This document shows, piece after piece, positions 7,632-54,084 of a stretch of 64,000 bases of DNA. Source of the DNA: Marivivens geojensis (GTDB taxonomy: Bacteria; Pseudomonadota; Alphaproteobacteria; Rhodobacterales; Rhodobacteraceae); the NCBI RefSeq assembly GCF_023540835.1, contig NZ_JALKCU010000001.1, forward strand, positions 992,001 to 1,056,000, given 5' to 3'. Position numbers and translations under genes: made by a program. Under the pieces are notes generated by a model. It made no database searches. It was not told the DNA's origin and saw only the letters and a list, made by a program, of their open reading frames with translations. How positions within the stretch are numbered: the stretch's first letter is position 1; every line of letters begins with the position of its first letter.

Positions 7632-8753
7632 ATGTCGCACAACCCGATCCGTCCGTGGCGTAATATCGACCGTCGTAAATCGCGTCAGATCATGGTTGGC
7701 AATGTGCCCGTGGGTGGGGATGCACCGATCACGGTGCAGACCATGACGAACACCTTGACCCATGACGTAAAGGCGACGCTGGACCAGATCATCCGCGCGG
7801 CCGAAGCGGGCGCTGACATCGTGCGCGTTTCTGTGCCCGACGAGGCATCCTCTGCCGCGATGAAAGAGATTTGCCGCGAAAGCCCCGTGCCGATCGTGGC
7901 CGACATCCATTTCCACTACAAACGCGGCATCGAATCCGCCCTCGCGGGCGCGGCCTGCCTTCGCATCAATCCGGGTAACATCGGCGATGAAGCGCGGGTG
8001 AAAGAAGTGATCAAAGCCGCCCGCGACAACAACTGCTCCATCCGGATCGGCGTGAATGCGGGGTCGCTGGAAAAGCACCTCTTGGACAAATACGGCGAAC
8101 CGACCCCCGACGCGATGGTGGAAAGCGGCCTCGACCATATCAAAATCCTTCAGGACAATGACTTCCATGAGTTCAAGATCAGCTGCAAAGCCTCGGACGT
8201 GTTCATGGCAGCGGCAGCGTATCAACAACTGGCAGAGGCGACCGACGCCCCCATTCACCTCGGTATCACAGAGGCAGGTGGCCTGACCTCGGGCACGATC
8301 AAATCGGCGATTGGCCTCGGGAACCTGTTGTGGATGGGCATTGGCGATACGATCCGCGTTAGCCTCTCGGCGGACCCCGTTGAAGAAGTCAAAGTCGGCT
8401 ATGAAATCCTCAAATCCCTCGGTCTGCGCCACCGTGGTGTGAACATCATTTCCTGCCCGTCCTGCGCGCGTCAGGGCTTTGACGTCATCAAGACCGTTGA
8501 GGCCCTAGAGGACCGCCTGTCCCACATCAAAACTCCGATGAGCCTCTCGATCATTGGTTGTGTGGTGAACGGTCCCGGTGAGGCGCTGATGACCGACGTT
8601 GGGTTCACTGGCGGCGGGGCAGGGTCGGGCATGGTCTATCTGGCGGGCAAGCAGAGCCATAAGCTCGGCAACGATCAGATGATCGACCACATCGTTGAAC
8701 AGGTCGAAAAGAAAGCCGCAGAGATCGAAGCGGACCAAGCCAAGACCCTCTGA
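7632..8753 (+). CDS. ispG: 4-hydroxy-3-methylbut-2-en-1-yl diphosphate synthase (IspG/GcpE)
   Basis: Penultimate enzyme of the MEP isoprenoid pathway, reducing MEcPP to HMBPP with a [4Fe-4S] cluster. The 373-residue protein has the TIM-barrel N-terminal part ([41 protein letters not shown]). The C-terminal cluster domain carries CPSC ([13 protein letters not shown]) and the third cysteine in [11 protein letters not shown]. Length fits the short bacterial form. The ATG at 7632 is preceded by AAAGGTG. A strong terminator follows at 8831-8872. Confidence 0.97.
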
Positions 8754-8830
8754 TCAACGCGTCCCCGCTTTTCGATCCGCATAAAAACTGAGCAAACGCC
8801 TCTGTTTTTGACCAAGCGTGCAAAAAATTT

Positions 8831-8873
8831 AAACCGCCGATTTCGTGCTGCATTGCAGGAAATCGGCGGTTTT
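8831..8873 (+). terminator. Rho-independent terminator after ispG
   Basis: Perfect 14-bp stem AAACCGCCGATTTC/GAAATCGGCGGTTT with a 14-nt loop and flanking A and T tracts, so it can work in both directions. Confidence 0.9.
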
Positions 8874-9015
8874 TGCGTCTAACCACTTCCCTAAGGTCAC
8901 CCCGCAATCCCCTGTTTTGGAACGGTTTCCGTAGTTTCCCTGCGAACGGTCACGGCTTTTCTGCATTGCGCGAAGGTGACGCGCCACTCAAATCCCGTGC
9001 GTTTTTGTCGGATTA

Positions 9016-9033
9016 TTTTACCAATTGATAAAA
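9016..9033. promoter_or_regulatory. RutR-like operator in the preT promoter region
   Basis: TTTTACCAATTGATAAAA is a palindrome with 8 of 9 pairs matching. Its core TTTACCA-AT-TGATAAA agrees at 11 of 14 positions with the E. coli RutR consensus TTGACCA-N2-TGGTCAA. RutR is a uracil-responsive TetR-family repressor. The location 52 bases before the preT start fits repression of pyrimidine degradation. Confidence 0.6.
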
Positions 9034-9042
9034 AATAAAACC

Positions 9043-9059
9043 TTGGCAGTCTTTTGGCA
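9043..9059 (+). promoter_or_regulatory. TTGGCA direct repeat, weak sigma-54-like spacing
   Basis: Two TTGGCA copies start at 9043 and 9054, one helical turn apart. They place GG and GC ten bases apart as in a -24/-12 promoter, but the -12 element is TTGGC in place of the usual TTGC, so the match is weak. Confidence 0.25.
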
Positions 9060-9084
9060 AAACCAATGACAACAGGGACCACAA

Positions 9085-10398
9085 ATGACCACGCCGATGA
9101 CCCCCGGTATCCAATCCGGCCGTTTGTCAGCCGACGCGCTTTCGCGGAACTTTGAAGACCTCCATGCGCCGCTTGATGCGCATGAGGCCCGCGTTGCAGC
9201 CGACCGCTGTTATTTCTGTCACGATGCGCCGTGTATGACGGCCTGTCCGACGTCGATCGATATTCCGCTGTTTATTCGTCAGATCCAAACGGGCACGCCC
9301 GAGGCGGCTGCGAAAACGATACTATCGCAGAATATCCTCGGCGGTATGTGCGCCCGCGTTTGCCCGACAGAGACGCTCTGCGAAGAGGCCTGCGTGCGCG
9401 AAGAGGCCGAAGGAAAACCTGTCATCATCGGTCAGCTTCAGCGCTATGCGACTGACACGCTGATGGCAAAGGGCGTGCACCCGTTCACCCGCGCTGCCCC
9501 CACGGGCAAGTCCATCGCCGTGGTTGGGGCAGGGCCTGCAGGGCTGTCCTGTGCGCACCGCCTCGCCATGAAAGGCCACGATGTCACCCTCTACGATGGC
9601 CGCGCCAAAGCGGGTGGCCTGAATGAATACGGGATCGCATCCTATAAATCGACCAATGACTTTGCCGCGCGTGAGGTCGCTTGGCTGTTGGAAATCGGTG
9701 GCATCACGGTCGAGACAGGCAAGATGCTCGGCGCTGATCTCACCTTAGATGCGCTGAAATCCGACCATGATGCGGTGTTCCTCGCCGTTGGCTTGGGTGG
9801 CGTGAACGCGCTGCGCATCGAAGGCGAAGACCAGGCGATCGCTGCCGTTGATTTTATCGAAGAGCTTCGTCAATCCACCGACCTGACGACACTCCCCGTG
9901 GGTCGGAATGTGGTGGTGATCGGCGGCGGTATGACCGCCGTCGATGCTGCTGTTCAATCTAAATTGCTTGGCGCGGATACGGTGACAATCGCCTACCGCC
10001 GCAGCCGCGCTGAAATGGCAGCCAGCCCGTTTGAACAAGACCTCGCCGCTGCCAAAGGCGTGCGCTTGATGTTCAACGTGATGCCGACCGCGATTGCCGA
10101 TGGCACAATCACGCTGGAATACACCGCGACCAAGGATGGCAAACTCTCTGGCACGGGCGAAACCGTGACCTTGCCCGCCGATCAGGTGTTCAAAGCCATC
10201 GGTCAAACCCTCACCACGGACGCTGGCCTCAAACTTGAGGGCGGTAAGATTGCCGTTGATGCCGCAGGCCGGACGAGCCTCGCAGGGGTTTGGGCTGGTG
10301 GCGACTGTGCCACGGGTGGCGAAGACCTCACCGTAACGGCCGTCGCCGAAGGACGCGACGCCGCCGAAGATATCCACGCTGCAGTGATGGGAGCGTAA
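9085..10398 (+). CDS. preT: NAD-dependent dihydropyrimidine dehydrogenase subunit PreT
   Basis: Flavoprotein subunit that takes electrons from NADH and passes them to PreA for reduction of uracil or thymine to the 5,6-dihydro compound. The 437-residue protein resembles the glutamate synthase small subunit. An N-terminal cysteine-rich domain for two [4Fe-4S] clusters (CYFCHDAPCMTACPT, then GGMCARVCPTETLCEEAC) is followed by an FAD motif VVGAGPAGLSCA near residue 150 and an NAD(P) motif VVIGGGMTAVDAA near residue 275. The C-terminal GVWAGGDCATGG closes the FAD domain. It is first gene of the pyrimidine operon, and preA starts 1 base after its stop codon, so the two are surely co-translated. A RutR-like palindrome lies upstream. 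Confidence 0.95.
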   Translation: MTTPMTPGIQSGRLSADALSRNFEDLHAPLDAHEARVAADRCYFCHDAPCMTACPTSIDIPLFIRQIQTGTPEAAAKTILSQNILGGMCARVCPTETLCEEACVREEAEGKPVIIGQLQRYATDTLMAKGVHPFTRAAPTGKSIAVVGAGPAGLSCAHRLAMKGHDVTLYDGRAKAGGLNEYGIASYKSTNDFAAREVAWLLEIGGITVETGKMLGADLTLDALKSDHDAVFLAVGLGGVNALRIEGEDQAIAAVDFIEELRQSTDLTTLPVGRNVVVIGGGMTAVDAAVQSKLLGADTVTIAYRRSRAEMAASPFEQDLAAAKGVRLMFNVMPTAIADGTITLEYTATKDGKLSGTGETVTLPADQVFKAIGQTLTTDAGLKLEGGKIAVDAAGRTSLAGVWAGGDCATGGEDLTVTAVAEGRDAAEDIHAAVMGA

Positions 10399-10399
10399 C

Positions 10400-11701
10400 A
10401 TGGCCGATCTGACGACAAACTTCTTGGGTATTACCTCCCCGAATCCGTTCTGGCTCGCTTCTGCGCCGCCGACCGACAAGGAATACAATGTTCGCCGTGC
10501 GTATGAGGCGGGTTGGGGCGGTGTCGTGTGGAAAACGCTCGGCTCCGAAGGCCCGCCCGTCGTGAACGTTTCTGGACCGCGCTATGGCGCGATCTGGGGC
10601 GCGGATCGACGGCTCCTTGGGTTGAACAACATCGAATTGATCACCGACCGTCCGCTGCAAACCAACCTCGAAGAAATCACCCGCGTTAAAAAGGACTACC
10701 CCGACCGCGCGTTGATCGTGTCGCTGATGGTTCCTTGTGATGAGGACTCGTGGAAAGCCATTTTGCCGATGGTCGAGGAAACAGGCGCCGATGGGATCGA
10801 ACTCAACTTTGGCTGTCCGCATGGCATGGCCGAACGCGGGATGGGCGCCGCCGTGGGGCAGGTGCCTGAATACATCCAAATGGTCACGGAATGGTGCAAG
10901 AAATACTATTCCAAACCCGTGATCGTAAAGCTGACGCCGAATATCACCGATATCCGCAACCCAGCCCGCGCCGCAAAGGCAGGCGGCGCTGATGCGGTGT
11001 CTTTGATCAACACGATCAACTCGATCACCTCTGTGGACCTCGACCTGATGGCCCCGCAACCGACCATCGGCGGCAAGGGCACCCATGGCGGTTATTGTGG
11101 CCCTGCGGTGAAACCAATCGCGATGAACATGGTAGCCGAAATCGCCCGTGATCCGCAGACCGCTGGTCTGCCCATTTCGGGCATCGGTGGCGTGACCACA
11201 TGGCGTGATGCGGCAGAGTTCATGGCGCTCGGCGCGGGTAACGTTCAGGTCTGCACGGCAGCGATGACCTATGGCTTTAAGGTCGTCCAAGAGATGATCA
11301 GTGGTCTGTCGGAATGGATGGACGACAAAGGCTACACATCGACCGCCGACTTTATCGGCAAGGCCACGCCGAACGTCACCGATTGGCAGTATCTCGACCT
11401 GAACTACGTCACAAAGGCCAAGATCGACCCAGATGCCTGCATCAAATGTGGTCGTTGTTACATCGCCTGCGAAGACACCAGCCACCAAGCGATCCTGATG
11501 AAAGAGGGCCGCGTGTTCGAGGTGGACGACAGCGAATGCGTCGCCTGTAACCTTTGTGTGGATGTCTGCCCTGTTGAGGACTGCATCACCATGGTCGAAC
11601 TGCCCAAGGGCGAGCTGGACGAACGCACAGGCCGCAAACGCGGTGACTATGCGAACTGGACGACCCACCCGAACAACCCCTCGGCACAGGCTGCGGAGTA
11701 A
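10400..11701 (+). CDS. preA: NAD-dependent dihydropyrimidine dehydrogenase subunit PreA
   Basis: Catalytic FMN subunit that reduces the pyrimidine ring. The 433-residue protein has a dihydroorotate-dehydrogenase-like barrel (FLGITSPNPFWLASAPPTD, ELNFGCPHGMAERGMG, the substrate/FMN segment SLINTINSITSVDLD, SGIGGVTTWRDAAEF). A C-terminal ferredoxin domain carries two CxxCxxC..C clusters (CIKCGRCYIACEDTSHQ and CVACNLCVDVCPVEDC). It is immediately downstream of preT. The operon continues after a 180-base gap that holds a hairpin and a second RutR-like box. Confidence 0.95.
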   Translation: MADLTTNFLGITSPNPFWLASAPPTDKEYNVRRAYEAGWGGVVWKTLGSEGPPVVNVSGPRYGAIWGADRRLLGLNNIELITDRPLQTNLEEITRVKKDYPDRALIVSLMVPCDEDSWKAILPMVEETGADGIELNFGCPHGMAERGMGAAVGQVPEYIQMVTEWCKKYYSKPVIVKLTPNITDIRNPARAAKAGGADAVSLINTINSITSVDLDLMAPQPTIGGKGTHGGYCGPAVKPIAMNMVAEIARDPQTAGLPISGIGGVTTWRDAAEFMALGAGNVQVCTAAMTYGFKVVQEMISGLSEWMDDKGYTSTADFIGKATPNVTDWQYLDLNYVTKAKIDPDACIKCGRCYIACEDTSHQAILMKEGRVFEVDDSECVACNLCVDVCPVEDCITMVELPKGELDERTGRKRGDYANWTTHPNNPSAQAAE

Positions 11702-11709
11702 GGAAAAAA

Positions 11710-11763
11710 CGTTGCGCGGTTGCCTGTTTCTTGGGCAAGCTGCCTGAAACCTGCCGCGCAACG
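11710..11763 (+). other. Strong intercistronic hairpin between preA and the carbamoylase gene
   Basis: Perfect 10-bp stem CGTTGCGCGG/CCGCGCAACG closes a 34-nt loop that can form a second stem. There is no T-tract, so it looks like an mRNA-stabilising or processing element and not a terminator. Confidence 0.5.
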
Positions 11764-11836
11764 GTTCAGAATTGGGCTTACGCTCGAAATTTTAGCACTT
11801 TGTTTTGATCAAAAAAGCGGTCAGCATGAGGATGCT

Positions 11837-11852
11837 TTTACCGCTTGGTCAA
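11837..11852. promoter_or_regulatory. Second RutR-like box, upstream of the carbamoylase gene
   Basis: TTTACCG-CT-TGGTCAA matches the E. coli RutR consensus TTGACCA-N2-TGGTCAA at 12 of 14 positions. It lies 28 bases before the start codon at 11880, suggesting that the carbamoylase-hydA-ABC unit has its own regulated promoter. Confidence 0.55.
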
Positions 11853-11879
11853 AAGAGACTCGGACATCAGGAGACAGGA

Positions 11880-13130
11880 ATGGCTGCACTTACCGGCAAT
11901 CTGACCGTAAATGGGGATCGACTTTGGGACAGCTTGATGGAGATGGCCAAGATCGGTCCAGGGATCGCCGGCGGATGTAATCGCCAGACCTTGACCGACG
12001 AAGACGCCGAAGGCCGCGCGCTGTTCAAATCGTGGTGCGATGCAGCGGGGATGACGATGGGCGTCGATACCATGGGCAATATGTTCATGACCCGCGAAGG
12101 CACTGATCCTGATGCTCTGCCGATTTATGTGGGGTCTCACCTCGACACGCAGCCCACGGGCGGGAAATACGATGGTGTTCTCGGCGTGCTCGGCGCACTT
12201 GAGGCCGTTCGGACGATGAATGACCTCGGTATCAAGACCAAACACCCGATTGTCGTGGTGAACTGGACCAACGAAGAGGGCGCGCGGTTCGCCCCTGCGA
12301 TGCTCGCCTCTGGTGTGTTTGCTGGGATGCATACGCAGGACTACGCCTATGCGCGGACCGACCTCGACGGTAAATCCTTTGGCGATGAACTCGCGCGGAT
12401 CGGTTGGAAGGGTGACGAAGAGGTTGGCGCCCGTAAGATGCATGCCTATTACGAATTGCACATCGAACAAGGCCCGATCCTAGAGGCAGAGGGCAAAGAC
12501 ATCGGTGTCGTTACCCATTGTCAGGGTCTTTGGTGGCTCGAATTTACCCTCACGGGTAAAGAAGCGCACACGGGCTCTACCCCTATGCCATTGCGTGTGA
12601 ACGCGGGCCTCGCCATGTCGCGCATTTTGGAAATGGTCCAAGAGGTCGCGATGAAAAACCAGCCCAATGCTGTGGGCGGTGTAGGCCAGATGCGGTTCTC
12701 TCCGAACTCGCGCAACGTGCTGCCGGGTAAGGTGGTCTTTACCGTCGATATCCGCACGCCCGATCAGGCCAAACTCGACGCGATGCGGGCAGAGATTGAA
12801 ACCCGCGGCGCTGAAATCGCAGCCGAACTGGGCGTCGGATGCTCAGTCGAGGCAGTCGGCCACTTCGACCCCGTCACTTTTGCCCCTGACCTCGTGTCTA
12901 ACGTCCGCAACGCGGCAGAGCGGTTGGGCTACAGCCACATGAACATCATCTCTGGCGCTGGGCATGATGCCTGCTGGGCGGCCCGTGTGGCCCCCGCGAC
13001 CATGGTCATGTGTCCTTGCGTCGATGGCCTGTCGCACAATGAGGCCGAAGAGATCAGCCCAGAGTGGGCCAAGGCAGGCACCGATGTCCTGCTCCATGCC
13101 GTGCTCGAAAGCGCGGTCATCGTCGAATAA
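11880..13130 (+). CDS. Zn-dependent N-carbamoyl amidohydrolase (beta-ureidopropionase / N-carbamoyl-beta-alanine amidohydrolase, M20 family)
   Basis: Third step of reductive pyrimidine catabolism: N-carbamoyl-beta-alanine to beta-alanine, CO2 and ammonia. The 416-residue protein has the M20 hydantoinase/carbamoylase layout: GSHLDTQPTGGKYDGVLGVL (metal His/Asp and bridging Asp), WTNEEGARFAPAMLASGVF (metal Glu pair), YYELHIEQGPILE, and the C-terminal SGAGHDACW and LSHNEAEE metal/substrate His. Allantoate amidohydrolase and L-carbamoylase share these motifs, but the position between preA and hydA decides for beta-ureidopropionase. The start at 11880 has GGAGACAGGA in front; the open frame extends 25 unconserved codons upstream across the operator. 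Confidence 0.9.
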   Translation: MAALTGNLTVNGDRLWDSLMEMAKIGPGIAGGCNRQTLTDEDAEGRALFKSWCDAAGMTMGVDTMGNMFMTREGTDPDALPIYVGSHLDTQPTGGKYDGVLGVLGALEAVRTMNDLGIKTKHPIVVVNWTNEEGARFAPAMLASGVFAGMHTQDYAYARTDLDGKSFGDELARIGWKGDEEVGARKMHAYYELHIEQGPILEAEGKDIGVVTHCQGLWWLEFTLTGKEAHTGSTPMPLRVNAGLAMSRILEMVQEVAMKNQPNAVGGVGQMRFSPNSRNVLPGKVVFTVDIRTPDQAKLDAMRAEIETRGAEIAAELGVGCSVEAVGHFDPVTFAPDLVSNVRNAAERLGYSHMNIISGAGHDACWAARVAPATMVMCPCVDGLSHNEAEEISPEWAKAGTDVLLHAVLESAVIVE

Positions 13131-13145
13131 GAGGGAGATCAGACC

Positions 13146-14600
13146 ATGACCACAGTCATCAAAAACGGCACCATCGTCACCGCCGACCTCACTTATAAGG
13201 CTGACGTCCTGATTGAGGGTGGCGTCATCACCGCAATCGGGCAAGAGTTCAAGGGCGATAAGGAACTGGACGCCACGGGGTGCTACGTCATGCCGGGTGG
13301 TATCGACCCTCATACGCACCTCGAAATGCCATTCATGGGCACCTATTCCACCGATGATTTCGAGAGCGGCACCCGTGCGGCGCTCGCGGGTGGCACGACA
13401 ATGGTCGTCGACTTTGCGCTGCCATCTCCGGGGCAGGGGCTGCACGATGCGCTGCAAATGTGGGACAACAAATCGACCCGCGCGAACTGTGACTACTCGT
13501 TCCACATGGCGGTCACGTGGTGGGGCGAACAGGTCTTTAACGAAATGGAATCCGTGATCCGTGATCGCGGCATCAATACGTTCAAACACTTCATGGCCTA
13601 TAAGGGCGCGTTGATGGTGAACGACGACGAAATGTATGCCTCGTTCCAGCGTCTCGCTGAACTGGGCGGCATCGCTATGGTGCACGCTGAAAACGGGGAC
13701 GTTGTTGCCGAACTCTCGGCCAAGCTTTTGCGCGAAGGCAATACAGGCCCCGAGGCCCATGCCTATTCCCGCCCGTCTCAGGTCGAAGGTGAAGCCACCA
13801 ACCGCGCGATTATGATCGCCGATATGGCGGGCGTGCCTCTTTATGTCGTGCACACCTCTTGCGAAGAGGCCCACGAGGCCATCCGCCGTGCGCGTATGAA
13901 TGGCAAACGGGTTTGGGGTGAACCGCTGATCCAGCACCTGACCTTGGATGAAAGCGAATACTTTAACCCTGACTGGGACCACGCCGCACGCCGCGTCATG
14001 TCCCCTCCGTTCCGCAATAAGAAACATCAGGACAGCCTATGGGCGGGCCTGCAATCTGGGTCGCTCTCGGTTGTGGCGACAGACCACTGCGCCTTTACCA
14101 CGGATCAAAAACGCTACGGCGTTGGGGACTTTACGAAGATTCCGAACGGCACGGGTGGCCTAGAGGACCGTATGCCGATGCTCTGGACACATGGCGTTAA
14201 CACAGGCCGCCTGACCCCGAATGAATTTGTCGCTGTAACCTCAACGAATATCGCGAAAATTCTGAACTGCTACCCGAAAAAAGGTGCTGTTCTTGTCGGG
14301 GCCGATGCAGACCTCGTTGTGTGGGATCCAGAGAAAGAAAAGACCATTTCCGCCTCTTCGCAACAGTCGGCAATCGATTATAACGTGTTCGAGGGACAGA
14401 CGGTGAAGGGCCTACCACGTTTCACTTTGACCCGCGGGCATGTGGCCATCCATGATGGAGAAATCCGCACCCAAGAAGGTCATGGTGAGTTCGTGAAACG
14501 CGGTCCAAACACTGCCGTGAACAAGGCCCTGTCCACGTGGAAAGAACTGACCGCACCGCGTCCTGTCGAACGCAGCGGCATCCCGGCAACGGGCGTATAA
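13146..14600 (+). CDS. hydA: Dihydropyrimidinase (D-hydantoinase)
   Basis: Opens dihydrouracil or dihydrothymine to the N-carbamoyl-beta-amino acid, the second step of the pathway. This 484-residue amidohydrolase-superfamily enzyme shows the metal pair in GGIDPHTHLEMPFMG and the carboxylated bridging Lys in FKHFMAYKGALM. The metal His residues follow in MVHAENGD and LYVVHTSCEEAHEAI, and the catalytic Asp is in VVATDHCAF. Length matches the family (about 460-485). It starts 15 bases after the carbamoylase stop codon and is followed 19 bases later by the ABC transporter genes. Annotation as hydantoinase would be equivalent biochemically; the operon indicates pyrimidines as natural substrates. 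Confidence 0.95.
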   Translation: MTTVIKNGTIVTADLTYKADVLIEGGVITAIGQEFKGDKELDATGCYVMPGGIDPHTHLEMPFMGTYSTDDFESGTRAALAGGTTMVVDFALPSPGQGLHDALQMWDNKSTRANCDYSFHMAVTWWGEQVFNEMESVIRDRGINTFKHFMAYKGALMVNDDEMYASFQRLAELGGIAMVHAENGDVVAELSAKLLREGNTGPEAHAYSRPSQVEGEATNRAIMIADMAGVPLYVVHTSCEEAHEAIRRARMNGKRVWGEPLIQHLTLDESEYFNPDWDHAARRVMSPPFRNKKHQDSLWAGLQSGSLSVVATDHCAFTTDQKRYGVGDFTKIPNGTGGLEDRMPMLWTHGVNTGRLTPNEFVAVTSTNIAKILNCYPKKGAVLVGADADLVVWDPEKEKTISASSQQSAIDYNVFEGQTVKGLPRFTLTRGHVAIHDGEIRTQEGHGEFVKRGPNTAVNKALSTWKELTAPRPVERSGIPATGV

Positions 14601-14619: not shown

Positions 14620-15393
14620 ATGAGTGTCATCGAAGCCAAAGGCCTCAACCTTACCTTTCAGACCAACGACGGGCCCGTTCATGCCCTTCGCGACGTCAAC
14701 CTGACCATTGAGAAAGGCGATTTCGTTTCATTCATCGGGCCATCTGGCTGCGGTAAAACGACGTTCCTGCGCTGCATCGCGGGTCTGGAACATCCGACGG
14801 GCGGCACGCTCTCTGTCAACGGCATGACTCCTGACGAGGCTCGTAAGGCGCGGGCCTATGGCTACGTGTTTCAGGCGGCGGGCCTTTATCCTTGGCGTAC
14901 TATCGGGGGCAACATTCGCCTGCCTCTCGAAATCATGGGCTTTTCCAAAGAGGATCAAGCCGAGCGTGTGAAAAAGACGCTCGATCTCGTGGACCTCACA
15001 GGGTTCGAAAAAAAATTCCCGTGGCAACTCTCTGGTGGGATGCAGCAGCGGGCGTCCATTGCCCGCGCTCTGGCTTTTGATGCCGATATTCTGTTGATGG
15101 ACGAACCCTTTGGTGCGCTCGATGAAATCGTCCGCGATAAACTGAACGAAGAGCTTTTGAAACTCTGGGCCCGCACGGAAAAAACCATCGGCTTCGTCAC
15201 CCACTCCATCCCCGAGGCGGTCTATCTCTCGACCAAGATCGTCGTGATGTCACCCCGTCCGGGCCGGATCACAGATGTTATCGAAAGCACCCTGCCGCGC
15301 GAACGTCCTTTGGATATCCGTGACAGCGCAGAGTTCATCGAAATCGCCCACCGTGTCCGCGAAGGCCTGCGTGCGGGGCATCTGGATGACTAA
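14620..15393 (+). CDS. ABC transporter ATP-binding protein (NitT/TauT/ThiZ type), probable pyrimidine importer
   Basis: A 257-residue cytoplasmic ATPase. Walker A is GPSGCGKTTFL (about residues 40-50), the Q-loop is in YVFQAAGLYPW, the signature is LSGGMQQRASIARAL, Walker B is ILLMDEPFGALD and the switch His is in FVTHSIPEAVYLS. Sequence type is that of the nitrate/sulfonate/taurine and thiamin-precursor (ThiZ) importers. It follows hydA by 19 bases and its end overlaps the start of the first permease gene by 8 bases, so it belongs to the pyrimidine operon. Import of uracil, thymine or a related base is inferred from that context only. Confidence 0.92.
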   Translation: MSVIEAKGLNLTFQTNDGPVHALRDVNLTIEKGDFVSFIGPSGCGKTTFLRCIAGLEHPTGGTLSVNGMTPDEARKARAYGYVFQAAGLYPWRTIGGNIRLPLEIMGFSKEDQAERVKKTLDLVDLTGFEKKFPWQLSGGMQQRASIARALAFDADILLMDEPFGALDEIVRDKLNEELLKLWARTEKTIGFVTHSIPEAVYLSTKIVVMSPRPGRITDVIESTLPRERPLDIRDSAEFIEIAHRVREGLRAGHLDD

Positions 15394-16333
15394 GGCTGGC
15401 CCGATCCTGACTGTCGTCCTCGCGATCATGGCGCTCTGGTATGTCGCCTGTATCCCGATGAACGTGCAGGAAACGCTCACCGCAGCCGAACGGGCAGGGG
15501 CCGTAGTAACCCCTGACAACGCCCGCGCCCGTGCAGAGGTCGGACGTTTTTCCCTGATGTTGCAAAACACCGATACCCTAGCGGGGAGCTGGTCGGTCGA
15601 ACGCGCCCGTCTGCCCGCGCCACATCAGATCGTGGCAGAACTTTGGGACAGCACTTGGACCGAAGAGGTCTATGGCCGCCGTGGCATCGTGAACTCGGGC
15701 AGCCTGTCGAATAAATCGCTGATCTATCACGGCTGGGTCACGCTATCCGCGACCGTTGTCGGCTTTGCCATTGGTGCTGGCCTCGGCGTCCTGCTCGCCG
15801 TTGGTATCGTGCACAGCAAAACCATGGATATGTCGGTCATGCCTTGGGCGATTGTCAGCCAGACGATCCCGATTGTGGCTCTGGCCCCAATGATCATCGT
15901 GGTCCTTTATTCCTTTGGCATCCAAGGCCTCATACCCAAGGCCGTCATCAGCGCCTATCTGTCCTTTTTTCCTGTCGTTGTCGGCATGGTCAAAGGTCTG
16001 CGGAGCCCCGACGCGATGCAGTTGGACCTCCTCCACACTTACAACGCTGGCCAAGGGGCGACCTTCTGGAAGCTCCGCCTGCCGTCCTCGGTGCCTTATC
16101 TCTTTACCTCGCTCAAGGTCGGCATCGCGGCATCGCTCGTCGGGGCTATCGTTGGCGAACTGCCTGTGCAGCGTGGCGGGCTTGGCGCGCGGATGCTGGG
16201 CGGGTCGTATTATGGCCAGACCGAACAAATTTGGGCGGCGCTGTTCTTTGCCGCTGGTATGGCCGCGCTCTTGGTCGCGCTGATTGGCTGGATTGAGGCC
16301 CGCACCCTTAAACGGATGGGAGTGCAGGCATGA
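15386..16333 (+). CDS. ABC transporter permease (NitT/TauT type), first of a pair
   Basis: A 315-residue inner-membrane protein. A first span lies at residues 5-22, followed by an unusually long periplasmic segment (about residues 23-110). The usual BPD_transp_1 core then begins with WVTLSATVVGFAIGAGLGVLL and contains an EAA-like loop near YNAGQGATFWKLRLPSSVPYLF. The ATG at 15386 overlaps the ATPase stop codon (8-base overlap); the open frame extends further upstream but that part lies inside the ATPase gene. It pairs with the next permease gene, which starts at an ATGA overlap. Two different permease subunits imply a heterodimeric channel. Confidence 0.9.
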   Translation: MTKAGPILTVVLAIMALWYVACIPMNVQETLTAAERAGAVVTPDNARARAEVGRFSLMLQNTDTLAGSWSVERARLPAPHQIVAELWDSTWTEEVYGRRGIVNSGSLSNKSLIYHGWVTLSATVVGFAIGAGLGVLLAVGIVHSKTMDMSVMPWAIVSQTIPIVALAPMIIVVLYSFGIQGLIPKAVISAYLSFFPVVVGMVKGLRSPDAMQLDLLHTYNAGQGATFWKLRLPSSVPYLFTSLKVGIAASLVGAIVGELPVQRGGLGARMLGGSYYGQTEQIWAALFFAAGMAALLVALIGWIEARTLKRMGVQA

Positions 16334-17178
16334 TCTACGTCCTCTTTGCCGCTCTGATCTGGGCCATGGGCTGGGGCTTGAACACTGTGATCGCCAATGG
16401 TCGTGCCGCCAAAACCTCTGCCGCGCAAATCGGCGTGCCGCTGATTTTCGGTGCAACTGTGCTGATCATCTGGGAACTTTTGGTTACGGGGCTGAACATT
16501 TCCGCTGTGATCCTGCCAGCGCCCACGGCCATCGCGACAGCCTTTGGTGCGAACCTCACGATCCTCTGGGCCGACTTTTTCCAGACCTTCGTCAAAGGCG
16601 CGTTCAGCGGCTATGTGATCGGCTGTGGCGCGGCCTTCCTCGTGGCGATTGTCGTGGACCGCTACGATTTCCTGCGCCGTGGCCTCTTGCCTGTCGGCAA
16701 CTTCGTCGCGGCTCTGCCCATCGTGGGCACCGCACCCATCCTCGTCATGTGGTTCGGCTTTGATTGGCAGTCCAAGGCTGCGGTCGTCGTGGTCATGGTG
16801 TTCTTCCCGATGCTGGTGAACACAGTCGCGGGTCTGCGCGATACCTCGACGATGCAGCGCGATCTGATGCGCACCTATGGCGCATCCTACACGCAAACGC
16901 TTTTGAAACTCCGGATCCCTGCTGCCATGCCCTTTGTTTTCAACGGGCTCAAAATTGCGACATCTTTGGCGCTCATTGGCGCGATTGTAGCCGAATTTTT
17001 CGGCTCACCTGTTTTGGGCATGGGATTTAGAATTTCGACATCGGTCGGTCAGTTGGCCCTTGATATGGTCTGGGCAGAGATCGTTGTCGCCGCAATCGCG
17101 GGCAGCCTTTTTTACGGGCTGGTCGCCAAGATCGAGCAATGGGTGACCTTCTGGCATCCATCGCAACGAAAACACTAA
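16330..17178 (+). CDS. ABC transporter permease (NitT/TauT type), second of a pair
   Basis: A 282-residue inner-membrane protein with about seven hydrophobic spans. The core begins near FFQTFVKGAFSGYVIGCGAAFLV, and the EAA-type coupling loop is in TYGASYTQTLLKLRIPAAMPFVFNGL (split: TYGASYTQTL and LRIPAAMPFVF). Its ATG overlaps the stop codon of the preceding permease by 4 bases (ATGA). The substrate-binding protein gene follows after about 40 bases with its own strong ribosome binding site (AAGGAG). The long periplasmic domain of its partner is absent here. Confidence 0.9.
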   Translation: MIYVLFAALIWAMGWGLNTVIANGRAAKTSAAQIGVPLIFGATVLIIWELLVTGLNISAVILPAPTAIATAFGANLTILWADFFQTFVKGAFSGYVIGCGAAFLVAIVVDRYDFLRRGLLPVGNFVAALPIVGTAPILVMWFGFDWQSKAAVVVVMVFFPMLVNTVAGLRDTSTMQRDLMRTYGASYTQTLLKLRIPAAMPFVFNGLKIATSLALIGAIVAEFFGSPVLGMGFRISTSVGQLALDMVWAEIVVAAIAGSLFYGLVAKIEQWVTFWHPSQRKH

Positions 17179-17219: not shown

Positions 17220-18200
17220 ATGAAGACCTATATGATCGGCGCAGTGGCCGCCCTTTGCACCGCCACCACAGCCTTTGCAGACGATGTGACGCTTCAGCTG
17301 AAGTGGGTCACCCAAGCTCAGTTCGCAGGCTATTACGTCGCGCTAGAGCAGGGCTTTTACGAGGCCGAAGGGCTCGATGTGACGATCCTCGCAGGTGGTC
17401 CCGACATTGCACCGGGTCAGGTGCTCGCTGGTGGCGGCGCTGACGTGATGATCGACTGGCTGCCCTCGGCGCTCGCGGCTCGCGAAAAAGGTCTGCCGAT
17501 CGTAAACATCGCACAGCCCTATAAATCCTCGGGCCTTATGCTGACCTGCTGGAAAGACAGCGGTATCACTGGCCCCGCAGACTTCCCTGGTCACACCATC
17601 GGCGTTTGGTTCTACGGCAACGAATATCCGTTCCTGTCGTGGATGAGCCAAGAGGGTATCTCGACCGATGGCGGCGAGGGGGGCGTAACCGTCCTCAAGC
17701 AGGGCTTCAACGTCGATCCGCTGTTGCAGCGTCAGGCCGATTGTATCTCTACCATGACCTATAACGAATTCGGTCAGGTGCTTGAGGCTGGCGTTTCACC
17801 CGATGAACTCGTCACCTTCAAATACGAAGACGTGGGCGTCGCAACCCTTGAGGACGGCCTCTATGTCCTCGAAGAGAACCTCAACGATCCGGCATTTGCT
17901 GACAAAATGGTCCGGTTTGTTCGTGCATCGATGCAGGGCTGGAAATGGGCTGAAGAGAACCCAGAAGACGCAGCCATGATCGTTCTCGACAACGACGAGA
18001 CAGGCGCACAGACCGAAGAGCACCAGATCTACATGATGGGTGAAGTTGCAAAACTGACCGCTGGATCGAATGGCGCGCTGGATGTTGCGGACTATGAACG
18101 CACTGTTGCGACACTGTTGGCTGGCGGCTCTGATCCTGTGATCACCGTTGAACCGACGGGCGCATGGACCCATGCGATCACGGACGCTGCACTTCAGTAA
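17220..18200 (+). CDS. ABC transporter substrate-binding protein, NMT1/THI5-like
   Basis: A 326-residue periplasmic binding protein. A Sec signal peptide is clear (MKTYMIGAVAALCTATTAFA, cleavage after AFA). The mature part opens with VTLQLKWVTQAQFAGYYVAL, EQGFYEAEGLDVTIL and GGPDIAPGQVLAGGGADVMI, typical of the NMT1/THI5-like family that binds pyrimidine precursors, sulfonates or nitrate. The link to a THI5-like fold fits a pyrimidine ligand. The start at 17220 has AAGGAG 9 nt upstream; the track of open codons before it lies inside the permease gene. It is the last gene of the operon and is followed at once by a bidirectional terminator. Confidence 0.92.
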   Translation: MKTYMIGAVAALCTATTAFADDVTLQLKWVTQAQFAGYYVALEQGFYEAEGLDVTILAGGPDIAPGQVLAGGGADVMIDWLPSALAAREKGLPIVNIAQPYKSSGLMLTCWKDSGITGPADFPGHTIGVWFYGNEYPFLSWMSQEGISTDGGEGGVTVLKQGFNVDPLLQRQADCISTMTYNEFGQVLEAGVSPDELVTFKYEDVGVATLEDGLYVLEENLNDPAFADKMVRFVRASMQGWKWAEENPEDAAMIVLDNDETGAQTEEHQIYMMGEVAKLTAGSNGALDVADYERTVATLLAGGSDPVITVEPTGAWTHAITDAALQ

Positions 18201-31669: not shown

Positions 31670-32445
31670 TGTTGATGAAACAGAAAGTCGGATCAGTTCA
31701 GTCGGTGCAACGGGCGATGACCCTGCTCAAGGCCCTCGCGGCGTCAGATGAAGGCCATCGTGTCAGCGACCTTGCCAAGGGCGCGGGCCTCGCCGTGTCC
31801 ACCACCCACCGCCTATTAACCACGCTCGAAATCGACAACTTCGCCTACTTCGATCCAGAGCGCGCGCTCTGGCATATCGGGCGCGAGGCTTACTCTGTCG
31901 GGTCGGCCTATGTGCAGAAATATAACTTTGTCACACCCGCCTTGCCCTACCTGCGTAAACTGCGGGACGAGACCCGCGAAACCGCGAACCTAGGTGTGCT
32001 GGATGGAGAGCAAATTGTTACTATTTCTCAAGTAGAAAGCCGCGAAATCGTCCGCGCCATTTCCCCCACGGGCGGGCGTGTTCCAGCCTTTTGTTCGGGC
32101 ATGGGTAAGGCCATTTTGGCCACATGGTCAGACAATCAAATCGAACGCTTTGCGGAGCGGGCAGGGTTCCACCCGATGACCCCCCGATCGCACCGAAACC
32201 TCGACACACTGATGAAGGAAATCCGCCACATCCGCGAGGTCGGCTATGCCGTCGATGACGAAGAACATGCCGCTGGTCTGCGCTGCGTTGCAGCAGTGGT
32301 TCTCTCGCGAGCGGAGGATGCAGTCTGTGCGATTTCCGTCTCTGCGCTCTCCTCGCGGCTTTCTCCTGACCGTATCAGTGAAGTCGGTGTTCGCATCCGC
32401 GATATGGCACAATCATTGACAGATTCGCTGCGCGGGGCCGCATAA
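31660..32445 (+). CDS. IclR family transcriptional regulator
   Basis: Up to 261 residues; the winged-helix N-terminal domain covers about residues 12-75 (SVQRAMTLLKALAASDEGHR, DLAKGAGLAVSTTHRLLTTL). An effector-binding GAF-like IclR domain follows, with AISPTGGRVPAFCSGMGKAI and the C-terminal VAAVVLSRAEDAVCAISVSA. IclR proteins of glyoxylate and allantoin pathways bind small acids such as glyoxylate. Located between glcB and glcDEF, with matching inverted repeats at 24078, 31651 and 32454, it is the probable regulator of all three units. Starts at 31669 or 31675 are possible because the operator overlaps the ATG at 31660. Confidence 0.88.
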   Translation: MRKMLMKQKVGSVQSVQRAMTLLKALAASDEGHRVSDLAKGAGLAVSTTHRLLTTLEIDNFAYFDPERALWHIGREAYSVGSAYVQKYNFVTPALPYLRKLRDETRETANLGVLDGEQIVTISQVESREIVRAISPTGGRVPAFCSGMGKAILATWSDNQIERFAERAGFHPMTPRSHRNLDTLMKEIRHIREVGYAVDDEEHAAGLRCVAAVVLSRAEDAVCAISVSALSSRLSPDRISEVGVRIRDMAQSLTDSLRGAA

Positions 32446-49440: not shown

Positions 49441-49557
49441 TTTCTGTTGGTCCAAGGCCTCCATACAGGGGATTGACCTCTCGTTGCAAACCTTATCGGC
49501 TGATATAGTCCGTATTTAAGTCATAGCGCTTGCAACCGTTCGCTTCGCGCTGCACAT

Positions 49558-49573
49558 TTTACCAAACGATCAA
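49558..49573. promoter_or_regulatory. RutR-like box immediately before cdd
   Basis: TTTACCA-AA-CGATCAA matches the E. coli RutR consensus TTGACCA-N2-TGGTCAA at 11 of 14 positions. It touches the ribosome binding site (AAAGGGGG) and lies 11 bases before the start codon, a position suited to repression. Confidence 0.5.
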
Positions 49574-49583
49574 AGGGGGTCCT

Positions 49584-49976
49584 ATGTCGTTGCTCGATCA
49601 TGCCAAAGCCGTTCGCGAAAATGCCTATGCGCCCTATTCAAATTTCAAGGTGGGGGCGGCGGTCCAGACCGCAAGCGGGACGATCTATACAGGCGTCAAC
49701 GTTGAAAACGTCGCTTATCCCGAAGGCACCTGTGCCGAAGCGGGCGCGATTGCGGCTATGTGTGCGGCAGGCGACCGCAAGATTGTTGAGGTTGCCGTGA
49801 TTGCGGATAGTCCAACACCTGTGACGCCCTGCGGCGGGTGCCGTCAGAAAATCGCAGAATTTGCGCAGCCTGAAACGATTGTGCGGATGTATACGACGGG
49901 TGGGGCGCAACTAGATATGACCGTGGCGCAATTGCTACCCGGTGTGTTCACCGCAGATCATATGGCCAATACCTAA
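49584..49976 (+). CDS. cdd: Cytidine deaminase
   Basis: Deaminates cytidine and deoxycytidine to uridine and deoxyuridine. The 130-residue tetrameric form shows YAPYSNFKVGAAV, the first zinc-ligand motif with catalytic Glu in GTCAEAGAIAAMCAAG and the second in PCGGCRQKIAEF. All three zinc ligands are Cys. The ATG at 49584 follows AAAGGGGG. It heads the overlapping salvage operon cdd-deoA-deoB-add-upp; deoA starts 1 base after its stop codon. Confidence 0.95.
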   Translation: MSLLDHAKAVRENAYAPYSNFKVGAAVQTASGTIYTGVNVENVAYPEGTCAEAGAIAAMCAAGDRKIVEVAVIADSPTPVTPCGGCRQKIAEFAQPETIVRMYTTGGAQLDMTVAQLLPGVFTADHMANT

Positions 49977-49977
49977 A

Positions 49978-51282
49978 ATGGACGCCCGCGCAGTCATCGC
50001 CAAAGTCCGCGACCGCCAGTCGCCCACGACCGAAGAGCTTCGGTGGTTCGCCAATGGGCTTGCCTCTGGCGCGGTGTCGGACGCTCAGGCAGGGGCCTTT
50101 GCGATGGCGGCGCTGTTGAATGGGCTGGGCGAAGAGGGGCGAATTGCCCTGACGCTCGGTATGCGCGATTCTGGCGATGTGCTGAAATGGCGGATGGATG
50201 GTCCAGTGATGGACAAACATTCGACAGGCGGTGTGGGGGATTGCGTGTCGTTGATCCTTGCGCCCGCATTGGCGGCTTGTGGTGTGTTTGTTCCGATGAT
50301 TTCCGGTCGGGGGCTGGGGCATACGGGCGGCACATTGGATAAAATGGAAGCCATCCCCGGTGTCACGGCTCAGATTTCTGAGGCAGAGTTGCGCCGTATC
50401 GTGGCTAAGGTCGGCTGCGCGGTCGTTGGCGCTACGGGGTCAATCGCGCCTGCGGACAAACGGCTTTATGCGGTGCGGGACGTATGCGCGGCGGTGGAAA
50501 GCGTGGACCTGATCACGGCGTCGATTCTGTCCAAGAAATTGGCGGCGGGACTAGAGGGTCTGATCCTCGACGTGAAAGTCGGCACGGGCGCGTTCATGAA
50601 AACGCCCGATGAGGCGCGAGCCTTGGCGCGGTCGTTGGTGGATACGGCGAACGGGGCAGGGTGCCCGACGGCTGCGATGATCACCGATATGAACGAACCG
50701 CTAGCGCCGACATTGGGCAATGCGCTCGAGGTTGCGACGTGTTTGGAGGTAATGGGCGGGGATAGGCTTGCGGCGCCTCGGCTCTTTGACCTGACGGTTG
50801 CGCTGGGCGGGCGGCTTTTGGCGCTGGCTGGTGGAGCCGAAGGTGAGGGCGAAGAGAAAATCCGCGCTGCGATCGAAAGCGGTGCTGCGATGGATCGTTT
50901 TGCCCAGATGGTGTTCGAAATGGGTGGGCCGCCCGATATGGATAAGGACTGGCGCACTCATTTGCCTGATGCGCCGATTGTGGTGCCTGTTCCCGCGCCC
51001 GAGGCTGGGATGGTCTCTGGCTGGAACGGTCAAGCCCTAGGCCTCACCGTTGTGGGACTGGGTGGTGGACGTCAGGTTGAGACGGACAAGGTCGATCCTG
51101 CGGTCGGTCTATCCGCTGCGATCCCGCTGGGTCGTGAGGTGCAAAAGGGTGATCCGATCGCCTTTGTTCATGCGCGGCGGGATGACGATGCGGCCCGCGC
51201 GGTGGCAGAGGTTCAAGCGGCGGTATCGATTGGCGGAGCAGACCCCGATCACCCCTTGGTGCATGAAAGGATCGACCCATGA
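49978..51282 (+). CDS. deoA: Thymidine phosphorylase
   Basis: Phosphorolysis of thymidine and deoxyuridine to base plus deoxyribose-1-phosphate. The 434-residue homodimer subunit has the phosphate-binding signature MDKHSTGGVGDCVSLILAPA near residue 80, SGRGLGHTGGTLDKMEAIPG and KKLAAGLEGLILDVKVGTGA. These are the glycine-rich and lysine/arginine features of nucleoside phosphorylase family 2. Start chosen 1 base after the cdd stop codon; the longer frame lies within cdd. Overlaps deoB by ATGA. Confidence 0.96.
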   Translation: MDARAVIAKVRDRQSPTTEELRWFANGLASGAVSDAQAGAFAMAALLNGLGEEGRIALTLGMRDSGDVLKWRMDGPVMDKHSTGGVGDCVSLILAPALAACGVFVPMISGRGLGHTGGTLDKMEAIPGVTAQISEAELRRIVAKVGCAVVGATGSIAPADKRLYAVRDVCAAVESVDLITASILSKKLAAGLEGLILDVKVGTGAFMKTPDEARALARSLVDTANGAGCPTAAMITDMNEPLAPTLGNALEVATCLEVMGGDRLAAPRLFDLTVALGGRLLALAGGAEGEGEEKIRAAIESGAAMDRFAQMVFEMGGPPDMDKDWRTHLPDAPIVVPVPAPEAGMVSGWNGQALGLTVVGLGGGRQVETDKVDPAVGLSAAIPLGREVQKGDPIAFVHARRDDDAARAVAEVQAAVSIGGADPDHPLVHERIDP

Positions 51283-52469
51283 GCCGTGCGTTTCTGGTCG
51301 TGATCGACTCTGTCGGGATTGGTGGCGCGCCTGACGCGGATAGCTATTTCAACGACGACCGCCCTGATACGGGGGCGAATACCGTGGGCCATATCGCGCA
51401 GGCGATGGCGCAGGCGGGGAAACCGTTGCAGGTCGGCACCTTGGATGCGCTGGGATTGGGCGCGGCAATGCGGCTTGCCTCTGGGCTAGAGGTAGAGGGC
51501 TTGGGCGCTGACCCCGTGGGCGCGTGGGCCGCGGCGACCGAAGTGTCAAAGGGCAAGGATACGCCGTCAGGTCACTGGGAATTGGCGGGCGTGCCAGTGC
51601 CGTGGGACTGGGGCTATTTCACTGAGCACGAGAATTCGTTCCCTGAGGCCGTGATTGCCGAGGTCTGCAAGGTCGCGGGTGTCGATGGAATTTTGGGTAA
51701 CTGCCACGCCTCTGGCACCGAGATCATCGCGCGTCTTGGTGCTGAACATCTGCGGACGGGCTATCCGATCTGCTATACTTCAGCCGATAGTGTGTTTCAG
51801 ATCGCCGCGCATGAAGATGCCTTTGGCCTTGATCGCCTGTTGGACCTCTGTAAGGGCATCGCGCCGATGCTGCACGAGATGAAAATTGGGCGCGTGATTG
51901 CGCGGCCTTTTGTGGGAGAAGTCGGTGCCTTTACACGCACCGCAAACCGTAAGGATTTCGCGATTGAACCGCCTGCGCCGACTCTTTGTGATTGGGTGCA
52001 GGGCGCTGGGCGGCATGTCTATGCCGTTGGTAAGATTGGTGATATTTTTTCTATGCGGGGCATCAACGAGGTTCGAAAGGGTCGCGATGATGTGCTGATG
52101 GCGCATCTGTCCGATCTCGTGGATGAGGCTGTAGATGGGTCGCTGACCTTTGCTAATTTCGTCGAGTTTGACAGCGAATACGGGCATCGTCGGGATGTCG
52201 TTGGATATGCTAAGCATCTAGAGTGGTTTAGTGTTAAACTAAATGAAATTTTGCCACGATTGCGTGAAGGCGACCTGCTGGTTGTCACTGCCGATCACGG
52301 CAATGATCCGACATGGACAGGCACGGATCACACCCGTGAACGTGTGCCTGTTTTGATCCACGGACTTGGGCCGCGCGCGCTGGGGCACATCGGGTTCTCC
52401 GATGTGGCCGCGACGATTGCCGCCCATCTGGGCGTTCCCGCCCAAGGCACAGGAAAATCAGTGATATGA
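51279..52469 (+). CDS. deoB: Phosphopentomutase
   Basis: Converts (deoxy)ribose-1-phosphate to the 5-phosphate. The 396-residue member of the alkaline phosphatase superfamily has the dimetal motifs: IDSVGIGGAPDADSYFND (Asp), DTGANTVGHIAQ (phosphorylated Thr), NFVEFDSEYGHRRDV, VVTADHGNDPTWTGTDHTRE (Asp-His pair and His). The start overlaps the deoA stop and the end overlaps add. A 3' segment (about 52226-52244) has half of the maeB palindrome, probably by chance. Confidence 0.96.
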   Translation: MSRAFLVVIDSVGIGGAPDADSYFNDDRPDTGANTVGHIAQAMAQAGKPLQVGTLDALGLGAAMRLASGLEVEGLGADPVGAWAAATEVSKGKDTPSGHWELAGVPVPWDWGYFTEHENSFPEAVIAEVCKVAGVDGILGNCHASGTEIIARLGAEHLRTGYPICYTSADSVFQIAAHEDAFGLDRLLDLCKGIAPMLHEMKIGRVIARPFVGEVGAFTRTANRKDFAIEPPAPTLCDWVQGAGRHVYAVGKIGDIFSMRGINEVRKGRDDVLMAHLSDLVDEAVDGSLTFANFVEFDSEYGHRRDVVGYAKHLEWFSVKLNEILPRLREGDLLVVTADHGNDPTWTGTDHTRERVPVLIHGLGPRALGHIGFSDVAATIAAHLGVPAQGTGKSVI

Positions 52470-53455
52470 GCTATCAATCTACCCCAAAGGTCGAGCTTCA
52501 CCTCCATTTCGAGGGGGCAGCACCACCTGATTTCATTCGCCAATTGGCGTTTGAACAGAAGGTCGATTTGTCCAAGATTTTCAATGAGGATGGCAGCTAT
52601 AAGTATCGCGACTTTGACCATTTCCTTGAGGTCTATGAAGCTGCGACTTCGGTCCTGAAAACGCCTGAGCATTTTGCGCGGCTTTGCACCGCCGTGTTGG
52701 AGCGCAGCGCGGAAAACGGCGTTGTCTACTGTGAAACCTTCTTGTCGCCTGATTTCTGCGGTGGTGCGGATGTCACTGCGTGGCGCGAATATCTCTGTGC
52801 GATCGAAGAGGCCGCGGCGAAGGCTGACAGCGAAATGGGCATTACGCTGCGCGGGATTGTGACGCCGATCCGCCATTTCGGACCAGAACAGGCGAAAAAA
52901 GCGGCCTTGTGTGCGGCTGAGACGAAGGGTGACTTTATCGTTGGCCTCGGTATGGGTGGGGCAGAGATGATGCATCGACCCGGTGATTTCGCCTATTCGT
53001 TCGACATGGGGCGTGAGGCTGGGCTGCGACTGACCTGTCATGCGGGCGAATGGGGTGGGCCAGATATGGTGGCCGACACCATCCGCGATCTAAAGGTCGA
53101 ACGCATCGGTCACGGTATCAACGCGATCAAGGACCGCAAACTGGTCGACGATATCGCTGAAGCAGGGATCGTGCTGGAGGTTTGTCCGGGGTCGAACGTG
53201 TTCCTTGGCGCGTCTGGCGATTGGGCGGATCACCCGATCAAGCCGCTCCGTGATGCGGGCGTTAAGGTTACTGTGTCCACCGACGACCCGCCGTTTTTCC
53301 ACACCACCATGACCAAAGAATACGACATGTTGGCCAAGACCTTTGGCTGGGGTGACGAAGACTTTGCCGAATTGAACAAGACCGCGATTGAGGCTGCATT
53401 CTGCGATGCGGCCACCCGCGACATCATCATCAAACGATTGGAGACTGCCCAATGA
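52466..53455 (+). CDS. add: Adenosine deaminase
   Basis: Deaminates (deoxy)adenosine to (deoxy)inosine. The 329-residue TIM-barrel has the zinc His pair in [17 protein letters not shown], the third His in [13 protein letters not shown] with the catalytic Glu, HGINAIKD, and the DD motif in [14 protein letters not shown]. The first His-x-His is HLH, with F-E-G where many enzymes have L-D-G/H-L-G. Adenine deaminases (ADAL type) share this layout, so adenine as substrate is possible; the nucleoside operon favours adenosine. Confidence 0.9.
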
Positions 53456-54084
53456 CTGACCATCTGACCGTTGTGGATCACCCGCTGGTTCAACACAAAC
53501 TGACCTTGATGCGCGAGTCTCGGACATCGACGGCACAGTTTCGCCAGTTGCTGCGCGAGATTTCCTTGCTGTTGGCCTATGAGGTGACGCGTGGGTTGCC
53601 GATGACGACACGGACGATTGAAACCCCGATGTGCAGCATGGAGGCCCCACAGATCGAGGGTAAGAAGCTCGCGCTGGTGTCGATCCTGCGGGCGGGCAAC
53701 GGGCTGCTTGATGGTATTCTTGAGCTGATCCCTGCCGCGCGTGTCGGTTTTGTTGGGCTCTATCGTGACGAAGAAACGCTGCAACCTGTGCAGTATTACT
53801 TCAAAGTGCCAACCCAGCTTGAGGATCGCACGGTGATTGTCGTTGATCCGATGTTGGCGACAGGTAACTCTTCGGCGGCGGCGATTGACCTGATCAAACA
53901 GGCTGGCGCCAAGGATATTCGGTTCCTCTGCCTACTCGCTGCACCCGAAGGGGTTGAACGGATGAAAGAAGCGCATCCAGACGTTCCGATTGTGACAGCA
54001 TCGGTAGACGAGCGCCTGAATGACCATGGATATATTGTTCCTGGTCTAGGGGATGCGGGTGACCGCATGTTTGGCACAAAATAA
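53452..54084 (+). CDS. upp: Uracil phosphoribosyltransferase
   Basis: Salvages uracil with PRPP to UMP. The 210-residue protein begins [20 protein letters not shown] and contains [18 protein letters not shown], the PRPP loop [18 protein letters not shown] and the uracil-binding C-terminus [17 protein letters not shown]. Length and motifs are standard. It is the last gene of the salvage operon, starting at an ATGA overlap with add. Confidence 0.97.

Follow-up and report, generated by a model that had tools for sequence, protein, structure and literature searches.

RutR is a uracil-responsive repressor of the TetR family. One published account describes its operator as "approximately 16 bp palindromic" and assigns residues W77, Y97, W167, Q171 and Q179 to uracil and K52 and K62 to the DNA side (PMC10891134). 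RutR regulons have been reconstructed in 68 proteobacterial genomes from 13 groups; they are regulons of pyrimidine catabolism with a mean of 10.9 target genes per genome and with taxon-specific motif changes (Leyn et al. 2016, PMC5343134). Here, a stretch of 64,000 nucleotides from Marivivens geojensis (Rhodobacteraceae; contig NZ_JALKCU010000001.1, positions 992,001 to 1,056,000; hereafter the window) was analyzed, which contains an operon for reductive pyrimidine breakdown with putative RutR operators. The original prediction for this DNA placed two operators, before preT and before the carbamoylase gene hyuC, and proposed that a RutR-type protein encoded outside the window controls both transcription units. 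Our analysis supports this reading on sequence grounds. It is very probable that a RutR ortholog holds preTA, hyuC-hydA with its ATP-binding cassette (ABC) importer, and a further unit, cdd-deoA-deoB-add-upp, off until uracil binds.

In comparison with Escherichia coli, the regulator is identical in 96 of 176 residues (55%; PDB 3loc) and keeps the uracil-contacting and the key DNA-side residues. The operators are 16-bp palindromes of the same type as the E. coli rutR/rutA operator. The predicted targets differ in that they comprise genes of the reductive pathway and a nucleoside salvage operon. RutA was over its cut-off in none of eight genomes searched, five of which gave weak matches of 51-54 bits, and the Rut pathway is therefore not an evident target. 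In addition, rutR lies far from its targets and has no operator of its own. Like the regulons of Leyn et al., the predicted one is a regulon of pyrimidine catabolism, a comparison made on the general features of that study. The common Rhodobacteraceae locus, in which a divergent rutR separates preT-preA from hyuC-hydA, has the same genes, the same operators and an orthologous regulator. The genome of the window (G000) departs from it in having rutR ~760 kb away from the operon, and in a second genome of the genus (G006) rutR is on another contig. No account of these RutR targets in this family was found in the accessible text of the literature searched, which included PMC5343134, PMC10891134, PMC4344238, PMC6397444, PMC7685610 and PMC5017801 and lay outside subscription journals, supplements and RegPrecise. 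In PMC5017801, on the Bradyrhizobium TetR gene blr7984, the term RutR does not occur. RutR regulons are a known kind; less expected are the salvage operon and the distance between the regulator and its predicted targets.

Operators in the window and their conservation

Both 16-mers of the original prediction were found at their positions (Table 1). Their fit to the E. coli pattern as given in that prediction, TTGACCA-N2-TGGTCAA, was recounted as 11 of 14 for the preT site and 12 of 14 for the hyuC site. A third site before cdd, absent from the original prediction, fits in 11 of 14. With up to three mismatches, the pattern occurred at 10 places in the window against 2.4 expected, a number reached by none of 100 shuffles, and a looser half-fixed pattern gave 40 places against 22 expected. 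At one mismatch, a relaxed pattern matched 8 places in the whole genome compared with 4 for a reversed control, and 3-12 places in six relatives of the genus compared with 0-7. Taken by itself, the pattern match is modest evidence for RutR operators. Because such counts are insufficient for the claim, a matrix was built from 58 hyuC-upstream sites of related loci; it contained no preT sites, and the recognized genus members (L026, L027 and L088) were left out. The matrix ranked the hyuC site first in the window (20.05 bits), the preT site second (17.48 bits) and the cdd site third (15.71 bits), followed by a fourth-best score of 11.87 bits. Per simulated 64 kb, 0.01, 0.02 and 0.075 matches were expected at the scores of the hyuC, preT and cdd sites, respectively, and the top score among the 200 simulated windows was 20.38 bits. 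A place at 32116-32131 (11.9 bits) lies within a gene read as an IclR-type regulator.

Conservation was assessed in the best 80 of 581 confirmed stretches from a PreT search, which came from Rhodobacteraceae-type genera or unclassified alphaproteobacterial assemblies. A site matching at least 12 of 14 positions was present within 250 bp upstream of preT in all 80 loci and within 300 bp upstream of hyuC in 60 of 66. This level was reached by 0.2% of mononucleotide-shuffled preT upstream regions and by 3.0% of random 250-bp windows from the same loci, operators included. The best hyuC segments matched at 69-87% in the 66 loci, as for an ordinary ortholog. The two sites differ in their downstream halves. 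At preT, operator position 12 is A in 75 of 80 loci, giving TTGATAAA, compared with GGTCAA or GGTAAA, and in some cases GGTCAG, at hyuC. In the upstream half of the preT site, TTTACC, each C is kept in 79 of 80 loci. The cdd site matched 12-13 of 14 positions in all seven genomes of the genus, G000 included, in five sequence versions starting 26-38 bp before cdd (30 of 37 matches were taken as loci, one of them G000).

The RutR ortholog, its gene order and its co-occurrence with the operator

For the RutR-type protein proposed to be encoded outside the window, the genome yielded a single strong match, at C10:239533-240138 on the minus strand. The gene adjoins an ABC operon and lies on the same contig as preA (start C10:1002400). 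Its product scored 244 bits with TIGR03613, the next of nine TetR matches reaching 39.6 bits, and contains TetR_N and YcdC-type TetR_C_3 domains, both over the Pfam cut-offs. All five uracil contacts and both lysines, K52 and K62, are kept in this protein as well as in all 77 orthologs compared (at least 55% identical). Over residues 29-66, 25 of 38 positions are identical to E. coli RutR, with SKPNLLYYF in place of SKTNLLYYF. By its neighborhood, residues and identity, not by model score, the gene is a RutR ortholog.

In 61 of the 80 loci, a rutR ortholog (at least 55% identical) is located between preA and hyuC in divergent orientation, with hydA also in view in 60; 14 of the remaining loci show preT or preTA alone in the DNA covered, and the gene order differs in the other 5. 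Within the genus, seven genomes (G000 to G006) were compared. In G001, G003 and G004, a ynjBCD-like ABC operon, named by reading, is followed by preTA, rutR and hyuC-hydA-ABC. In G000 and the closely related G006, the ynjBCD-like operon has kept rutR as its neighbor, and preTA-hyuC-hydA-ABC stand together elsewhere without rutR. G005 has rutR alone at the same place and hyuC-hydA-ABC elsewhere with a 12/14 site before hyuC; no PreA match was obtained there at E 1e-100. Two PreA-like paralogs of G005 (L198 1518 and L200 1556) each have a 13/14 RutR-type site upstream. The L200 protein scored 286 bits with the PreA model, below the cut-off of 335, and the L198 protein was named by reading; they may represent a replacement dehydrogenase under the same switch. 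G002 has an isolated rutR whose promoter carries a 14/14 site. In G002 (L140) and G022 (L145), the RutR ortholog is kept and no PreA or HyuC match was found at the thresholds used. Two genes adjoin rutR in G002; in G001, G003 and G004, their counterparts come after the distal end of the pyrimidine operon, which is the pattern that loss of the block from the joined order would leave. Since the joined order is the common one in the loci compared, it is simplest to assume that the catabolic genes moved away from rutR. Descent within the genus would fit the RutR gene trees, which are weakly supported.

Among 61 genomes, 32 contained RutR and PreA and three PreA only at the thresholds used. The preT operator was present in G000 and G006 and in all 16 of the other 30 RutR- and PreA-bearing genomes in which the preT upstream region was readable. 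It was absent from two RutR-less preTA genomes, G020 and G035 (98% and 97% complete), and present in a third, G034 (86% complete). Before hyuC, a 12/14 site was found in 7 of 8 RutR-bearing genomes and in none of 4 RutR-less genomes, where the best match was 11/14. The 80 loci include some from these genomes. Numbers are small and the genes divergent, but the co-occurrence runs in the expected direction.

Operon genes, promoter elements and further candidate sites

The gene content of the pyrimidine operon was as originally described, including the ABC importer in the second unit and the hyuC start. By gene family assignment, its genes belong to pyrimidine catabolism; the operon is flanked by genes read as ispG and hisF. 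For preT, no NCBIfam model was over its cut-off among the 25 matches listed. From the operon context, HyuC would act as a beta-ureidopropionase. In the tightly packed five-gene cdd unit, the family search confirmed cdd and deoA, and the other genes were named by reading.

Table 1. Features of the window, with positions counted from its first nucleotide
Feature	Position	Strand	Basis or remark
RutR-type operator before preT, TTTACCAATTGATAAA	9017..9032	+	second matrix score; downstream half may double as -35 box
Putative -35 hexamer TTGATA within preT operator	9025..9030	+	A at operator position 12 in 75/80; 16 bp 5' of conserved CAnnCT element
Putative extended -10, TGG then CAGTCT	9044..9052	+	conservation in motif-anchored rows (window and 80 loci)
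preT, electron-input subunit of dihydropyrimidine dehydrogenase	9085..10398	+	Fer4_20 and Pyr_redox_2 over cut-off
preA, dihydropyrimidine dehydrogenase subunit	10400..11701	+	NF006183, 729 bits (cut-off 335)
GC-rich inverted repeat after preA	11707..11766	+	possible hairpin without T run
RutR-type operator before hyuC, TTTACCGCTTGGTCAA	11837..11852	+	first matrix score; 60/66 related loci
hyuC, carbamoylase-type M20 amidase	11880..13130	+	NF006769 (allantoate amidohydrolase), 696 bits (452); TIGR01879 (hydantoinase/carbamoylase family), 396 bits (204)
hydA, dihydropyrimidinase	13146..14600	+	TIGR02033, 601 bits (393)
ABC importer ATPase	14620..15393	+	ABC_tran
ABC importer permease 1	15386..16333	+	operon position; weak matches, best 38 bits
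ABC importer permease 2	16330..17178	+	BPD_transp_1
ABC importer NMT1-type substrate-binding protein	17220..18200 (searched from 17217)	+	PF09084
RutR-type operator before cdd, TTTACCAAACGATCAA	49558..49573	+	third matrix score; 10 bp before cdd
cdd, cytidine deaminase	49584..49976	+	NF004064
deoA, thymidine phosphorylase	49978..51282	+	NF004490
deoB-like phosphopentomutase, overlaps deoA	51279..52469	+	named by reading
add-like adenosine deaminase	52466..53455	+	named by reading
upp-like uracil phosphoribosyltransferase	53452..54084	+	named by reading

The original prediction had placed both of its sites at promoters. At preT, a conserved promoter-like element was found; for hyuC, no convincing promoter was found. 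A TGn-CAnnCT element (conservation over the window and 80 loci: T27 and G28, 0.80; C30, 0.80; A31, 0.85; C34, 0.88; T35, 0.84) follows the preT operator at a nearly constant distance, and the downstream half of this operator is therefore probably also a -35 box. A consensus promoter scan gave no match on the plus strand in the preT promoter region. Because the sigma-70 scan returned a single match on the opposite strand (1.2 expected), the -35/-10 assignment is drawn from conservation. A GG-N10-GC match of the sigma-54 type was seen by eye at preT and rejected, as it is not kept in the aligned related rows. Before cdd, TTGCAA (49530-49535) and CACATT (49553-49558), read by eye, form a plausible promoter. 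At 11803-11854, the downstream half of the hyuC operator (TTGGTCAAAA) forms the 3' arm of an inverted repeat of 10 nt, whose other arm, TTTTGATCAA, lies 32 nt upstream, and the leader at 11695-11860 has a folding z of -3.5. Rfam gave no match in 8750-12000. Among plasmid records, 46 contained similar DNA, all at 60-80% identity, and no close plasmid copy was present in that collection.

Other high-scoring places in G000 were inspected for their context, gene names being given by reading. C10:1337147 (16.0 bits) and C11:25223 (15.7 bits) are inside genes, C10:373908 (20.1 bits) is in a phage-like stretch, and C14:111599 (20.8 bits) is intergenic with a resolvase-like gene on one side; these four were set aside as background by position alone. 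A 13/14 site at C15:9983-9998 (L206 2584-2599; 18.3 bits) lies immediately 5' of where a gene for a secreted protein probably starts; G006 contains an identical 16-mer. Sites matching 13 of 14 positions also precede orthologous genes for an amino-acid ABC binding protein in G000 (C10:760418; L207 2919-2934; 19.5 bits) and in G005 (L197 1488-1503), and the G000 16-mer is present in G006 as well (L177). In other members of the genus, 13-14/14 sites (L191 1497, L195 1513, L199 1548 and 6384, and L190 1545) were observed near deoC/aldehyde dehydrogenase genes in G001 and G002, near an allantoinase-like/hydroxyisourate pair and an aminotransferase in G005, and near a NasT-like gene in G001, all named by reading, with the aminotransferase match under the cut-off. 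For the deoC and aminotransferase sites, no match of 12/14 was found at the loci of G000 (best 11).

Proposed control and alternative explanations

From the sites and the regulator, we infer the following course of control. The predicted operators would be read by the RutR ortholog, whose gene is on the same contig at a distance of ~760 kb. In the absence of uracil, a RutR dimer on the operators would block transcription of preTA, of hyuC-hydA and the importer, and of cdd-deoA-deoB-add-upp; uracil in the conserved pocket would release it. Imported or salvaged pyrimidines would thereby switch on their own conversion to uracil and its reductive breakdown. At preT, the operator covers the putative -35 box, and at cdd it overlaps the last base of the putative -10 and would cover the likely start. 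In the ancestor, rutR presumably stood between preA and hyuC, with a single operator shared by rutR and hyuC. In G000 and G006, the catabolic genes would have been relocated with their operators, leaving rutR behind, in G000 without an operator.

Several observations weigh against this proposal. The RutR ortholog scored below the curated cut-offs of both family models (244.6 versus 368 bits for TIGR03613; 226.8 versus 230 bits for NF011584), and its name therefore rests on the 55% identity, the uracil contacts and the orthologous neighborhood. No operator was found at the rutR promoter of G000 (best match 10/14, -2.16 bits), and self-control of rutR was therefore probably lost in this genome. 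Many of the 80 loci are closely related, several being from one genus, and their counts are not independent. Six of the 66 hyuC upstream regions had less than 12/14 within 300 bp, but upstream of rutR each of these six loci has a 13-14/14 site. Outside the genus, the cdd site occurs sporadically, reaching at least 12/14 in 4 of 29 cases examined. In the co-occurrence data, 6 of the other 30 RutR- and PreA-bearing genomes were unreadable and 8 were not fetched, the RutR-less sample consists of three genomes with divergent PreT (61-66%), one of which keeps the site, and G029 has RutR and no hyuC site within 300 bp. Finally, six further places in G000 at one mismatch score 15.7-20.8 bits, like the sites in the window, and at least two of them are inside genes. 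The original prediction had named many random genomic hits, or the lack of a RutR-family gene, as what would speak against it. On the former the genome is unfavorable, with loose matches common and a few scoring as high; on the latter it is favorable, as a strong RutR gene exists. The case therefore depends on conservation and on the genes around the sites.

These loose matches, some as high in score as the window sites, also raise the question of whether the sites are chance matches or non-functional remnants left after the separation from rutR. This is extremely improbable in view of the low numbers expected by simulation at all three scores and of the preT site, which matches 13 of 14 positions in this genome compared with 12 of 14 in the three members of the genus that have the joined order. 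The sites could also be bound by another TetR-type or an unrelated palindrome-reading regulator, their likeness to RutR operators being common to a neighboring family. Similar palindromes may serve other regulator families, and the genome holds eight further TetR-type matches. However, the best of these lies at 39.6 against 244 bits, in 61 of 80 loci rutR itself borders the gap that contains the operator, the operator is missing from the two near-complete preTA genomes without RutR, and the region of residues 29-66 is close to that of E. coli RutR; we consider another regulator unlikely.

For the preT site, conservation might reflect a role as a promoter element (-35 TTGATA) rather than in repression, as its half TTGATAAA is nearly invariant and lies 16 bp before the conserved -10-like element. 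Yet the upstream half, TTTACC, is equally invariant although it is outside the -35 box, the hyuC and cdd sites have the palindrome without a -35 layout, and the two RutR-less relatives are without the whole site, which makes this explanation very unlikely. Repression by the RutR ortholog remains the preferred reading for all three units. On a further step, our judgment is evenly balanced: after the operon left its regulator, RutR may have become a constitutively made, distant uracil sensor of a scattered regulon comprising reductive uracil breakdown with its importer, cytidine and deoxynucleoside salvage (including upp) and possibly an importer of amino acids. The operators would have moved with, or re-arisen at, each relocated gene set (G000, G005), with RutR persisting even in G002.

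The proposed control links RutR, a known uracil sensor, to reductive pyrimidine breakdown rather than to the Rut pathway and suggests that an operator-regulator pair was retained through genome rearrangement. It makes the ABC importer of the second unit likely to be a pyrimidine importer. Through the cdd site, nucleoside salvage would come under the same control as uracil breakdown, which predicts uracil-responsive salvage genes in a common marine family.

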